A stretch of DNA of 64,000 nucleotides from assembly GCA_037200445.1 (NCBI GenBank), contig JBBCGH010000001.1, forward strand, positions 868,001 to 932,000. Direction: 5' to 3'. Below, one piece after another: positions 27,625-42,713 of the stretch (positions within the stretch are counted from its first letter, which is position 1; the number at the start of each line of letters is the position of its first letter). The DNA is from Alphaproteobacteria bacterium (GTDB taxonomy: Bacteria; Pseudomonadota; Alphaproteobacteria; Rhizobiales; Xanthobacteraceae). The translations under genes and the position numbers were made by a program. Under the pieces are notes generated by a model, which was not told where the DNA came from, ran no database searches, and worked only from the letters and a program-made list of their open reading frames with translations.

Positions 27625-27643
27625 CTGGGGCGCTCGCCCCTGC

Positions 27644-28046
27644 CGTCATCGCCCGCGAAGGCGGGCGATCCAGTAAACAGCGGGCCATGCCGTGACTCAC
27701 GGGCTGGCGATCGCGGGATAGAGATGGTCCCAGTTGGGATTCGACTGTTCGATCAGCCTTATCTTCCATTCGCGATTCCATTTCTTCAATCGCTTCTCGC
27801 GCCGGATCGCGTTTTCGATATCGAAGAATTGCTCATAATAGACGAGACGATGAACGGCATATTTGTTTGTGAAGCCGGGAACAACGTCGCTTCGGTGTTC
27901 ATAGACACGGCGGACAAGATTGTTGGTCACGCCGATGTAGAGCGTTCCGCCGATGCCGCCGGCGAGGATGTAGACCCAGAAATAGCGTTCGGCGCTCATC
28001 GCATCGCTGGTGATTACTGGATTGCCCGCCTTCGCGGGCAATGACG
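27644..28046. mobile_element. Hairpin-bracketed GIY-YIG element, copy 1 (intact)
   Basis: The left end (27644-27676) is CGTC, stem ATCGCCCGC, loop GAAG, stem GCGGGCGAT, then CCAGTAA. The right end (28014-28046) is the inverted form: TTACTGG, stem ATTGCCCGC, loop CTTC, stem GCGGGCAAT, GACG. Between them lies only a GIY-YIG nuclease gene. The unit is 403 bp and fills the gap between tadG and the ABC ATPase gene. Calling it mobile is inference from the repeated architecture at 29921-30325 and 42613-42713. Confidence 0.65.
27697..27999 (-). CDS. GIY-YIG single-domain nuclease
   Basis: A 100-residue protein: YFWVYILAGG gives the GIY strand, LYIGVTNNL the YIG strand, then RRVYEHR with the conserved arginine and EKRLKKWNREWKIRLIE with the metal-binding glutamate region. 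It is a UvrC-N/Slx1-like domain with no other domain. ATG 27999 is preferred; the 14 extra N-terminal codons of the longer frame fall inside the flanking hairpin. Small GIY-YIG proteins of this type are often annotated as excinuclease-like. The bracketing by inverted hairpins suggests a role in moving the element, which is untested. Confidence 0.85.
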   Translation of the reverse strand: MSAERYFWVYILAGGIGGTLYIGVTNNLVRRVYEHRSDVVPGFTNKYAVHRLVYYEQFFDIENAIRREKRLKKWNREWKIRLIEQSNPNWDHLYPAIASP

Positions 28047-28095
28047 GAGCTTGGGGCGCTCTCCGACATTACCCTATCGCAAATGTTGCCAGCCG

Positions 28096-28863
28096 CTACC
28101 CCGGCAGGAACGCCTGTTCGCCGGTCGCCGGGTCGATGAGCCGCTTCACCGGCGCGCGATAAAGCGCGCTGAGAGTTTCCAAGGTCAGCACATCGTTGAT
28201 CGCGCCCTCGGCGACGCAGGCGCCGTCGCGCAACAGATAGGCGCGGTCGGCGGCGCGCAGCGCGTGGTTCGGGTCGTGCGTGGTGAACAGCACGCCGTGG
28301 CCCGAGGCGGCGAGCGACCTGATCTGGTTCATCACCTTGCCCTGGTTGCCGAAGTCGAGGCTCGCGGTCGGCTCGTCGAGCACGACGAACTGCGGCTCCT
28401 GCGCGAGGGCGCGGGCGAGCAGCACGAGCTGGCGCTCGCCGCCGGAGATCATCGTGTAGGGCCGGTCGGCAAGATGCGCGATGCCGAAACGCTCCAGCAT
28501 CGCGGTCGCGACGGTGCGATCATGCGCGCTCGGGCGGCTGAACAGCGTGCCGTGCGCGGTGCGCCCCATCAGCACCACGGCCTCGACCGTGAAGGCGAAC
28601 GTCGCGACATGCGATTGCGGCACATAAGCGAGGATGCGCGCGCGTTCGCGCACCGTGTAGCCGGCAAGGTCGCGTCCGCCGCACTCCACGGCGCCGGCCT
28701 TCGGCGAGATCAGCCCGAGCAGCGTCTTGAGCAGCGTGGTCTTGCCGCCACCGTTTGGGCCGAGCAGCGCCAGAACCTCGCCCCGGTTGAGCGCCACGTC
28801 GAGGTTCGTGCCGACGAGGCGGTCCGGATAACCGATCGAGAGTTTGTGCCCGGCGAGAATCAT
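28096..28863 (-). CDS. ABC transporter ATP-binding protein (FecE/MolC type)
   Basis: A 255-residue ATPase of the iron-chelate/B12/molybdate importer family: Walker A GPNGGGKTT (about 35-43), signature SGGERQLVLLARAL, Walker B FVVLDEPTASLD and switch histidine TTHDPNHAL. It lies 12 bp downstream of the FecCD-type permease gene. Substrate is inferred from neighbours: a ModA-like binding protein two genes upstream points to molybdate or tungstate, as in the MolBCA system of Haemophilus; an iron chelate or cobalamin remains possible. Confidence 0.88.
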   Translation of the reverse strand: MILAGHKLSIGYPDRLVGTNLDVALNRGEVLALLGPNGGGKTTLLKTLLGLISPKAGAVECGGRDLAGYTVRERARILAYVPQSHVATFAFTVEAVVLMGRTAHGTLFSRPSAHDRTVATAMLERFGIAHLADRPYTMISGGERQLVLLARALAQEPQFVVLDEPTASLDFGNQGKVMNQIRSLAASGHGVLFTTHDPNHALRAADRAYLLRDGACVAEGAINDVLTLETLSALYRAPVKRLIDPATGEQAFLPG

Positions 28864-28875
28864 GACCGGATTCTT

Positions 28876-29907
28876 CTACGACCAGGTCTTGGAAACGCTG
28901 GCGAGCAGCCAGATGAAGAACGGCGTGCCGATCACGGCGGTGAGGATGCCGAGCGGGATCTCGATCTGCGCGGCCGAGCGCGCGAGCGTGTCGATCAGCA
29001 GCAGATAGCCGCCGCCGAGGATCGCGGCGGCGGGCAAGAGGCGCGCGAAGTCGGGACCGACCAGCGAGCGCGCGAGATGCGGCACCACCAGCCCGACCCA
29101 GCCGATGATCCCGGCGGTCGCCACGCTTGCCGAGGTCACCAGCGTTGCGGCCGCCACCACGGCGATACGCAGCGGCCCGGTTGCAAGCCCGAGCGAGCGC
29201 GCCTCCTCTTCGGGAAGCGACATCACATTCATGCGCCAGCGCAAAGCAATCAGCACGAGAGACCCGAGCGCCACGGGCCCGAACAGCGGAATGAGATCGG
29301 CCGGCGCCGTGGCGGAAAGGCTGCCGAGCAGCCAGAAGGTCATGGCGGGAAGCTGGTTGTAGGGGTCGGCGAGATACTTCACGAGGCCGACCCCCGCGCC
29401 GAGCAGCGCGCCGACCACGACGCCGGTCAGCACCAGAACGAGGATCGGGTCGCGCGACTGCACCGCCGAGCCGATAACGTATACGGCGGCGACCGCCGCA
29501 AGCCCGCCGATGAACGCGAGCCCCTGAATGCCGACGATGCCGAGCGAGAAATAGATGCCGACCACCGCGCCGAGCGCGGCGCCGGAGGATGCGCCGAGGA
29601 TGTCAGGCGACACCAGCGGATTGCGGAACAGGCCCTGGAACGCCGTGCCCGCAACCGCGAGCGCAGCCCCGACCAGCACGGCGGCGATCACGCGCGGTCC
29701 GCGGATGTAGAGGATCACGTTCTCGATTGCGGGCGGCAGGGATGAAGATCGCCCGCTCACGCGCGAAGCGACAAATTCGGCGACGTCGGCGAGAGAAACC
29801 GGATAACGCCCGACCGTGAAGGCAAACAGCAGTCCGGCAACCAGTACGGCGAGCGCAATCGCAAAGCCCGGAGCCGCGGAACGGGTCATTGCGAGACGCT
29901 GGCGCAT
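28876..29907 (-). CDS. ABC transporter permease (FecCD/BtuC/MolB type)
   Basis: About 343 residues with some ten hydrophobic segments. Family motifs are RGPRVIAAVLVGAALAVAGT, FRNPLVSPDILGASSGAALG and IGWVGLVVPHLARSLVGPD. Start candidates are GTG 29916, ATG 29907 and ATG 29889; none has a good ribosome-binding site, and the hairpin-bracketed element ends only 5-14 bases upstream. The original leader may therefore have been displaced by that insertion. Partner of the ATPase downstream and the binding protein upstream. Confidence 0.85.
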   Translation of the reverse strand: MRQRLAMTRSAAPGFAIALAVLVAGLLFAFTVGRYPVSLADVAEFVASRVSGRSSSLPPAIENVILYIRGPRVIAAVLVGAALAVAGTAFQGLFRNPLVSPDILGASSGAALGAVVGIYFSLGIVGIQGLAFIGGLAAVAAVYVIGSAVQSRDPILVLVLTGVVVGALLGAGVGLVKYLADPYNQLPAMTFWLLGSLSATAPADLIPLFGPVALGSLVLIALRWRMNVMSLPEEEARSLGLATGPLRIAVVAAATLVTSASVATAGIIGWVGLVVPHLARSLVGPDFARLLPAAAILGGGYLLLIDTLARSAAQIEIPLGILTAVIGTPFFIWLLASVSKTWS

Positions 29908-29920
29908 GCCGCACACTCGG

Positions 29921-30325
29921 CGTCATCATCCGCGAAGGCGGATGATCCAGTAACCACAGGACCGTCAGTTTGAGCAGAGGTCGCAGTTACTGGGTCTATA
30001 TCCTCGCCAGCAAGATCGGCGGGACGCAGTACATTGGCGTCACCAACAATCTTGTCAGGCGAGTCTATGAGCATCGTGAGCATCTAGCTGAGGGGTTCAC
30101 CGAAAAGTACGCCGTCCATCGGCTGGTTTATTCGAGCAGTACGACAACATAGAGAGCGCGATAGGAAGAAAGAAGCGGCTGAAAAAGTGGAATCGCGCGT
30201 GGAAGATTCGCCTGATTGAAGAGAAAAACCCGAACTGGGATGATCTCTACCCATCAATCGCCCAGCCCTGATGATACCACCGCCTGCCGTGTCTACTGGA
30301 TGCCCCGCCTTCGCGGGGCATGACG
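29921..30325. mobile_element. Hairpin-bracketed GIY-YIG element, copy 2 (decayed)
   Basis: The left end (29921-29953) is CGTC, stem ATCATCCGC, loop GAAG, stem GCGGATGAT, CCAGTAA. The right end (30294-30325) is TACTGG, stem ATGCCCCGC, loop CTTC, stem GCGGGGCAT, GACG. The interior holds a frameshifted GIY-YIG gene on the plus strand, opposite in orientation to copy 1. The 405-bp unit accounts for nearly all of the gap between the binding-protein and permease genes of the importer, i.e. it sits inside an operon. Confidence 0.65.
29970..30271 (+). pseudogene. GIY-YIG nuclease gene inactivated by a one-base deletion
   Basis: The reading frame from 29970 gives SYWVYILASKIGGTQYIG and continues in step with the intact copy as far as KYAVHRLVY, then shifts and stops at about 30150. 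If one A is restored between 30132 and 30133 (TATTCGAG to TATTACGAG), the frame continues as YEQYDNIESAIGRKKRLKKW and runs to a TGA at 30269-30271, matching the intact copy to its end. The truncated product lacks the glutamate-bearing helix and should be inactive. Confidence 0.85.
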
Positions 30326-42612: not shown

Positions 42613-42713
42613 CGTCATACCCCGCGAAAGCGGGGTATCCAGTAAACTCCGGCCGCGTGGCAAATCGCAAGCGTCTGTGTTTACTGGGTCGCCCGCCTTC
42701 GCGGGCGATGACG
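42613..42713. mobile_element. Hairpin-bracketed mini-element without gene (copy 3)
   Basis: The left end (42613-42645) is CGTC, stem ATACCCCGC, loop GAAA, stem GCGGGGTAT, CCAGTAA. The right end (42681-42713) is TTACTGG, stem GTCGCCCGC, loop CTTC, stem GCGGGCGAT, GACG. About 35 bases separate them and no GIY-YIG sequence is present. It has the form of a non-autonomous derivative of copies 1 and 2 and makes up most of the 126-bp divergent gap between two genes. Confidence 0.65.

Follow-up and report, generated by a model that had tools for sequence, protein, structure and literature searches.

The question raised by this 64,000-nucleotide stretch of a Xanthobacteraceae genome (positions 868,001 to 932,000 of contig JBBCGH010000001.1, assembly GCA_037200445.1; hereafter the window) is whether two small elements in it, each made of a single GIY-YIG nuclease gene between inverted hairpins tagged CGTC, are mobile and whether the nuclease is what moves them. 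Such hairpins were grouped in 2013 by Di Nocera, De Gregorio, and Rocco as the CGTC superfamily of repetitive extragenic palindromes (REPs), which predominate in alphaproteobacteria, occur in several other phyla, and, according to the accessible text of that paper (PMC3733652), seem to be without a dedicated transposase and are perhaps heading towards extinction. The explanation that we favor, with a probability of roughly 60%, is that the two window features represent the autonomous, gene-bearing type of a REPtron-like element, with CGTC hairpins as ends and a GIY-YIG nuclease of about 100 amino acids as the product of its only gene, and that short gene-less hairpin pairs are its nonautonomous form. 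The gene and its ends form one unit in many phyla, and the unit is mobile, being absent at orthologous sites in relatives and present in several copies at different sites per genome; the nuclease is a strong candidate for the moving enzyme, and that it carries out the cleavage and transposition is what we infer.

Copy 1 occupies positions 27644 to 28046 (403 bp) and copy 2 positions 29921 to 30325 (405 bp), neither whole unit being assigned to a strand. The two copies share one plan, inverted CGTC hairpin ends around a single GIY-YIG gene, and all ends follow the formula CGTC, 9-bp stem, GAAG, returning stem, CCAGTA(A/G). Inverted-repeat search and folding placed the left end of copy 1 (tail CCAGTAA) at 27644 to 27676 on the plus strand and its inverted right end at 28014 to 28046 on the minus strand; the ends of copy 2 were placed in the same way at 29921 to 29953 (plus) and 30293 to 30325 (minus, tail CCAGTAG). 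The inverted arms run from 27643 to 27679 and 28011 to 28047 in copy 1 and from 29921 to 29957 and 30289 to 30325 in copy 2. When folded, all four ends form a 9-bp stem closed by a GAAG loop (z scores of -4.6 to -5.1) and beat 200 of 200 shuffles, and ends of the family possibly extend about 8 to 12 bp outward from CGTC, where a CTCTC motif lies. Copy 1 contains an intact GIY-YIG open reading frame on the minus strand (27697 to 27999, 100 amino acids from an ATG); an alternative TTG start lengthens the frame to 28041, into the hairpin, and this longer frame matches Pfam PF01541 with an E value of 1.5e-13. The gene of copy 2, on the plus strand, is split by a frameshift into a first part (29970 to 30152, 60 amino acids, PF01541 at 2.9e-9) and a second part in another frame (30119 to 30271) with a stop at its end. 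Copy 2 lies at the junction of two genes that by eye resemble those of an ABC permease and a substrate-binding protein. The first-pass annotation had described two hairpin-bracketed GIY-YIG units of one plan, inserted in opposite orientations at unrelated host sites; the positions, plan, gene type, and orientations all hold, and no similarity between the two host sites was reported beyond the unit boundaries, but the right tail of copy 2 had been given as CCAGTAA and its gene is frameshifted. Searches of Rfam and PADLOC and a phage search returned no match.

The same hairpins are abundant elsewhere in the source genome. With up to 3 mismatches allowed, the end pattern matched the 5.84-Mb genome 115 times, and its reversed control did not match at all. 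Among the 100 listed copies used for pair analysis, 74 formed 37 close pairs, every one of them head-to-head (convergent), and neither divergent nor tandem pairs occurred within 450 bp; about 0.2 such pairs would be expected by chance. The inner spacing was bimodal, with 34 pairs at 11 to 53 bp and 3 pairs at 339 to 353 bp, and each of the three long pairs, two of them in the window and the third at 4.214 Mb, enclosed a GIY-YIG gene, which in the third has an internal stop. A full reading of 23 pairs showed that units with a gene resemble short pairs in their inner end (CCAGTA followed by A or G, often then CAC or CGC) and in a weak outer CTCTC motif. Insertion into the center of an existing palindrome, a target suggested by paralogous copies, was rejected as a general rule when the outer flanks of these 23 pairs scored 9.57 for symmetry and shuffled pairs 9.62. 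Apart from the two units, the 100 listed hits included one more site in the window, a gene-less short head-to-head pair of the same family at 42613 to 42713 (no strand assigned), found by the genome pattern scan. Two more GIY-YIG homologues are present in the source genome: L005, whose ends have long loops, and L006, which has no recognizable ends.

By tag, stem, loop, tail, copy number, and the predominance of head-to-head pairs, the four ends belong to the CGTC superfamily, whose members have a CGTC (or TGTC) tag, a stem of 8 to 9 bp starting with AT, a loop of 4 to 5 nucleotides, and a CCA tail and occur mostly as head-to-head pairs and mostly between genes (PMC3733652, accessible text). 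The window ends agree in their CGTC tag, 9-bp stem beginning with AT, 4-nucleotide loop, CCA tail, and head-to-head pairing; unlike in the 2013 account, the long copies hold a GIY-YIG gene of about 100 codons between their hairpins, so that the absence of an associated transposase gene does not extend to the long pairs if the putative transposase role is granted. The 2013 analysis of intragenic REPs excluded those within hypothetical proteins shorter than 120 amino acids. The first-pass annotation knew of no characterized system of this kind; the hairpins do have a named superfamily, and among the best-matching papers of a search of freely available journal articles, none was seen to tie GIY-YIG to REPs or related repeats. 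The accessible text of two papers that cite the 2013 study (PMC12306157 and PMC5896051) does not mention GIY, and that of PMC10969869, PMC1564403, and PMC8266576 contains no link between GIY-YIG and REPs.

The association of gene and ends was then followed across bacteria. A match was found in 44 of 61 genomes of the relatives search (source genome counted) and in 169 of 299 genomes of the phylum, the weaker matches belonging to a second clade described below; a scan of a species-genome collection gave at least 589 confirmed stretches, and the record titles of the best 80 name Proteobacteria, Chloroflexi, Planctomycetota, Bacteroidetes, Omnitrophota, and Patescibacteria, among others. Ends were detected without reference to a motif, by comparing the DNA left of the gene with the reverse complement of the DNA to its right at a score threshold of at least 30. 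In the first set, inverted ends were found at 109 of 142 GIY-YIG loci versus 1 of 266 comparison windows shifted by 900 bp, with L098 left unscored for too little DNA beside the gene. Three loci had been entered twice (L039/L068, L040/L070, and L046/L150); without the duplicates the counts are 106 of 139 in the first set, 141 of 187 in the final set, and 59 of 78 in the neighbor-gene comparison, and with them 109 of 142, 144 of 190, and 61 of 80. Neighboring genes passed the threshold in only 4 of 194 cases, against 141 of 187 GIY-YIG loci in the final set and 61 of 80 GIY-YIG genes in the same loci; at one of the four (L134) the matched end has a CGTC hairpin, perhaps from a nearby GIY-YIG gene. 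When orthologues were collapsed to one locus per site, 101 of 144 had inverted ends. The first-pass annotation had asked whether hairpins and genes are independent in other genomes, and by these counts they are not.

Within the main clade the matched ends are mostly CGTC hairpins, highly varied in sequence and some with long loops; the long-loop end of one family folds no better than its shuffles. In 60 of 78 flanked nonorthologous loci, which were selected for having ends and therefore do not give an unbiased rate, the right end of the locus was the best partner of its left end, and the mean end score was 62.8 within loci versus 21.4 for other loci. Hairpin similarity climbed weakly with protein similarity (Spearman coefficient of 0.14; 2 of 500 permutations as high). 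All 8 genomes with at least 10 window-type hairpins carry a family GIY-YIG gene, a co-occurrence that says little because 36 of the other 53 genomes carry one as well.

A second GIY-YIG clade has a palindrome of its own. Twenty distant GIY-YIG loci from the phylum search, intended as a negative control, had inverted ends in 13 cases (14 with the windows of the final set), and for this reason displaced windows and neighbor genes served as controls instead. The palindrome of the distant clade, CCTGAGC-TTGTC-GAAGG and variants, is unrelated to the CGTC type; in the distant loci L286 to L305 (for example L289, L291, and L295), GIY-YIG genes are flanked by palindromes of the form CCTGAGC..GTCGAAGG. 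This TCGAAGG-class repeat is multicopy in 5 of 7 genomes of that set (22 to 42 matches, with 0 in the other two) and has 0 to 1 matches in the source genome and two relatives. All rows labeled TCGAAGG in a 180-row tree fall in a single clade (support, 100/94). Of its 18 rows, 13 carry that label, 4 have no ends, and 1 is labeled CGTC; the other 162 rows comprise 113 labeled CGTC, 40 without ends, 9 with other ends, and none labeled TCGAAGG. Two loci (L074 and L106) were relabeled from TCGAAGG to CGTC before tree building, and L288 kept its CGTC label with ends that resemble the TCGAAGG class and were judged a variant of it; the tree has few columns, many unresolved forks, and unsettled bootstrap values. 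Both kinds of gene, each with its own palindrome, coexist in the genomes G007 (L042 and L300) and G027 (L046 and L303), and shared host ancestry therefore does not explain the pairing of gene and palindrome. We rate at about even odds the broader proposal that GIY-YIG nucleases are the missing transposases of the CGTC REP superfamily and that another GIY-YIG clade has the same part for the TCGAAGG palindromes.

Presence and absence of the unit between relatives, which the first-pass annotation had wanted to see, were found at several sites. At the copy 2 junction, the best 19 matching loci from 119 genomes were read, 17 of which had both flanks; the unit was absent in 15 of these 17, with a gene-less CGTC-like pair whose second tag is altered in one of the others (L272) and a GIY-YIG unit in the last (L268). 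The junction was only 8 to 37 bp in 7 of the 15 empty relatives, and 2 held other repeats. At the Bradyrhizobium site listed second (best 30 loci from 195 genomes), 5 loci have a unit of about 440 bp, the gene being only a 49-amino-acid open piece in one (L328), 1 has a single hairpin, 15 have a bare junction of 30 to 33 nucleotides, and 9 (L327, L330 to L335, L353, and L355) are filled by an unrelated intergenic repeat of about 270 to 320 bp (CCCTCTCCCTAACCCTCCCC...). The third-listed site, also in Bradyrhizobium (best 30 loci from 146 genomes), has the gene in 16 loci, in pieces in 3 of them, and lacks it in 14, of which 8 have a hairpin pair (of two hairpin families), 2 have a single hairpin, and 4 have none detected by the finder. 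The hairpins around the gene at this site are of the CTTGA type in some species; in others, the gene stands between two whole GAAGG pairs. Among the four loci without detected hairpins, L217 has a single symmetrical palindrome and L201 a hybrid hairpin with a CTTGA-type left half and a GAAGG-type right half, another palindrome being inserted in its partner's loop. Azospirillum lipoferum carries the unit between sufB and sufC, where the four relatives read have none, and two Sphingobium plasmids have a lone palindrome where relatives have the unit; at the Sphingobium and Azospirillum plasmid sites, presence and absence are clear, with spacers that vary too much to define exact junctions. At L217, L190, and L191, sites that are filled in relatives, a single symmetrical palindrome flanked by CGTC-like tags looks like a possible scar of deletion or excision between hairpin arms. 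Dispersal within genomes is evident in one genus, two genomes of which have 3 and 4 sampled copies (87 to 91% and 75 to 88% identical) with a sharply ended inverted terminal repeat of about 70 bp (CTTCGTCATTCTAGGG...) and differing flanks, save that some adjoin a different repeat. The unit thus has the terminal inverted repeats and the presence/absence at orthologous sites of an insertion sequence or miniature inverted-repeat transposable element (MITE). The selfish REP-like unit proposed in the first-pass annotation is supported by the association of ends and gene and by the empty sites, and the protein is its putative mover.

The main rival, which we consider unlikely, is that the gene is a homing-type parasite of CGTC pairs that something else spreads: its product would cut gene-less pairs, and break repair would copy the gene into the cut pairs. 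GIY-YIG is a classic homing-endonuclease domain (PMC1564403, accessible text), one relative has a weak PHROG match to a homing endonuclease of the GIY-YIG type, the gene is found between hairpin pairs or next to them, including two-pair composites, and pair-only alleles occupy the same site as gene-bearing ones in 8 of the 30 loci at one Bradyrhizobium site. Homing is probably not the whole story: the empty sites, the commonest state at two junctions, lack the hairpins as well as the gene, in the 15 of 17 relatives at the copy 2 junction and the 15 of 30 loci at the second Bradyrhizobium site; moreover, palindrome class tracks protein clade, no intron was seen, and no other enzyme was found at CGTC pairs, where Y1 transposases were tested and other transposase families were not searched.

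The protein itself is well conserved. Across 28 members, 21 positions are invariant, among them the Y, R, and N positions of the GIY-YIG superfamily, and the Glu is kept in at least 90%. The model of the copy 1 protein (predicted local distance difference test score, 89.8; predicted template modeling [TM] score, 0.83) has as its nearest PDB folds UPF0213 (1zg2; E value, 9e-4), the branched-DNA nuclease Slx1 (3e-3 and up), and then UvrC, with TM scores of about 0.55 to UPF0213 and Slx1 and of about 0.5 to 0.56 over the three, and sequence comparison also ranks UPF0213 first. We know of no established function for UPF0213, nor of UPF0213, Slx1, or UvrC N-terminal nucleases as parts of hairpin-ended elements. 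The ratio of nonsynonymous to synonymous substitution rates (dN/dS) is 0.01 to 0.07 among four orthologues at one site, 0.05 to 0.16 among paralogues within two genomes, and 0.24 between the divergent source-genome paralogues (copy 1 versus the gene at 2.236 Mb); the values of 0.01 to 0.16 within sites or genomes point to purifying selection on a working gene.

Such constraint would also suit a domesticated host nuclease with a role in trimming or resolving the CGTC hairpins or cruciforms next to its own gene while RAYT-like (REP-associated tyrosine transposase) or other transposases move them, as would the dN/dS of 0.01 to 0.07 among the orthologues, the retention of the gene at one site in many Bradyrhizobium species, and the nearest folds. 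This alternative is improbable in view of the broken and dispersed copies, which resemble a mobile gene rather than a fixed host gene, and of a search for Y1 transposases in 8 genomes rich in window-type hairpins. Three of the 8 had no hit; the other 5 genomes had 6 Y1 loci, all without a CGTC pair and 5 of them with other inverted ends, GTAG-containing in four, that of the source genome included. The comparison with RAYT systems in the first-pass annotation was apt: the one Y1 locus of the source genome has GTAG-containing inverted ends, as against the CGTC ends of the GIY-YIG genes in the window. The Y1 loci with GTAG-containing ends (L379, at G000:C1:259604-259891, and L377, L378, and L380) stand apart from the CGTC system; the source-genome Y1 locus contains one single CTTGT-type CGTC hairpin. 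Judged from sequence, these results fit the known pairing of RAYTs with GTAG and would leave CGTC to another enzyme. Finally, that CGTC hairpins, frequent (115 in the source genome) and mostly intergenic (PMC3733652, accessible text) as they are, merely happen to flank small intergenic genes is scarcely credible against the 61 of 80 GIY-YIG genes and 4 of 194 neighbor genes in the same loci, the match of left to right ends, and the clade-specific palindromes.

Several observations weigh against a gene-bearing, REPtron-like element moved by its GIY-YIG nuclease. Inverted ends above the threshold were missing at 46 of 187 GIY-YIG loci, and ends paired across different loci reached the threshold in 55 of 400 cases, because ends share a consensus. 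One relative with 46 window-type hairpins has only GIY-YIG homologues of about 54% identity. For copy 1, no relative with both flanks side by side was seen among 20 loci and the matches listed, and no target-site duplication was recognized when filled and empty alleles were compared by eye. A dN/dS down to 0.01 would be expected of a domesticated host gene as much as of a selfish one. A simple transposon would also not be expected to have its gene flanked by a complete hairpin pair on each side rather than enclosed in one, the layout seen at one Bradyrhizobium site and in Azospirillum lipoferum.

If the nuclease does move the element, hairpins extruded on single-stranded or supercoiled DNA would be recognized by it as branched or folded DNA and nicked at the hairpin foot, guided by the CGTC/CCAG context. 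GIY-YIG enzymes hydrolyze DNA without a covalent intermediate, and for this reason rejoining or copying is left to the host in the scheme, in which host replication and repair would complete excision or copying into the target; short gene-less pairs would be moved in trans. The spread of CGTC REPs had no enzyme, and the clade-matched nuclease gene in the long copies makes the question directly testable. The REP/RAYT arrangement would then have a counterpart with different chemistry, in which a hydrolytic, structure-specific nuclease of about 100 amino acids, working without a covalent intermediate, spreads hairpin-ended DNA across many phyla, and at least some small proteins that carry the annotation "GIY-YIG nuclease family" or "excinuclease ABC subunit C" would be products of mobile-element genes.

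Among known systems, REPtrons (TnpA-REP/RAYT with GTAG REPs; PMC8266576, accessible text) likewise have a single nuclease gene flanked by inverted tagged hairpins and, with REPINs, many short gene-less inverted pairs alongside one or few gene copies per genome; unlike REPtrons, which have an HUH tyrosine transposase and a GTAG tag, the window elements have no HUH tyrosine transposase gene between their repeats and combine GIY-YIG with CGTC. With UPF0213, Slx1, and UvrC N-terminal nucleases the protein shares the fold and the conserved Y, R, N, and Glu, and with homing endonucleases of the I-TevI type it shares the nuclease domain; unlike the latter, the protein of about 100 amino acids has space for little else than that domain, and its gene has hairpin ends of its own and no intron that was seen. 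Bacterial MITEs also have short gene-less forms with inverted ends, but here no transposase-bearing parent of a known insertion sequence family was found and no target-site duplication was recognized.

Further loci show other arrangements of the gene. In L197, L205, L213, and L186 it stands between two complete head-to-head pairs, as in a composite element, and in L092 and L093 it is inverted relative to flanks orthologous to those of other Bradyrhizobium loci. On Rhizobium plasmids (L180 and L181), a family gene near htpG, common to 8 related plasmids, lacks recognizable ends and is possibly a stranded or domesticated copy. A homologue in a Neisseria gonorrhoeae record labeled as a plasmid (L182; 2.17 Mb) lies amid CGTC hairpins of a type equated with the dRS3 repeats in the accessible text of PMC3733652.

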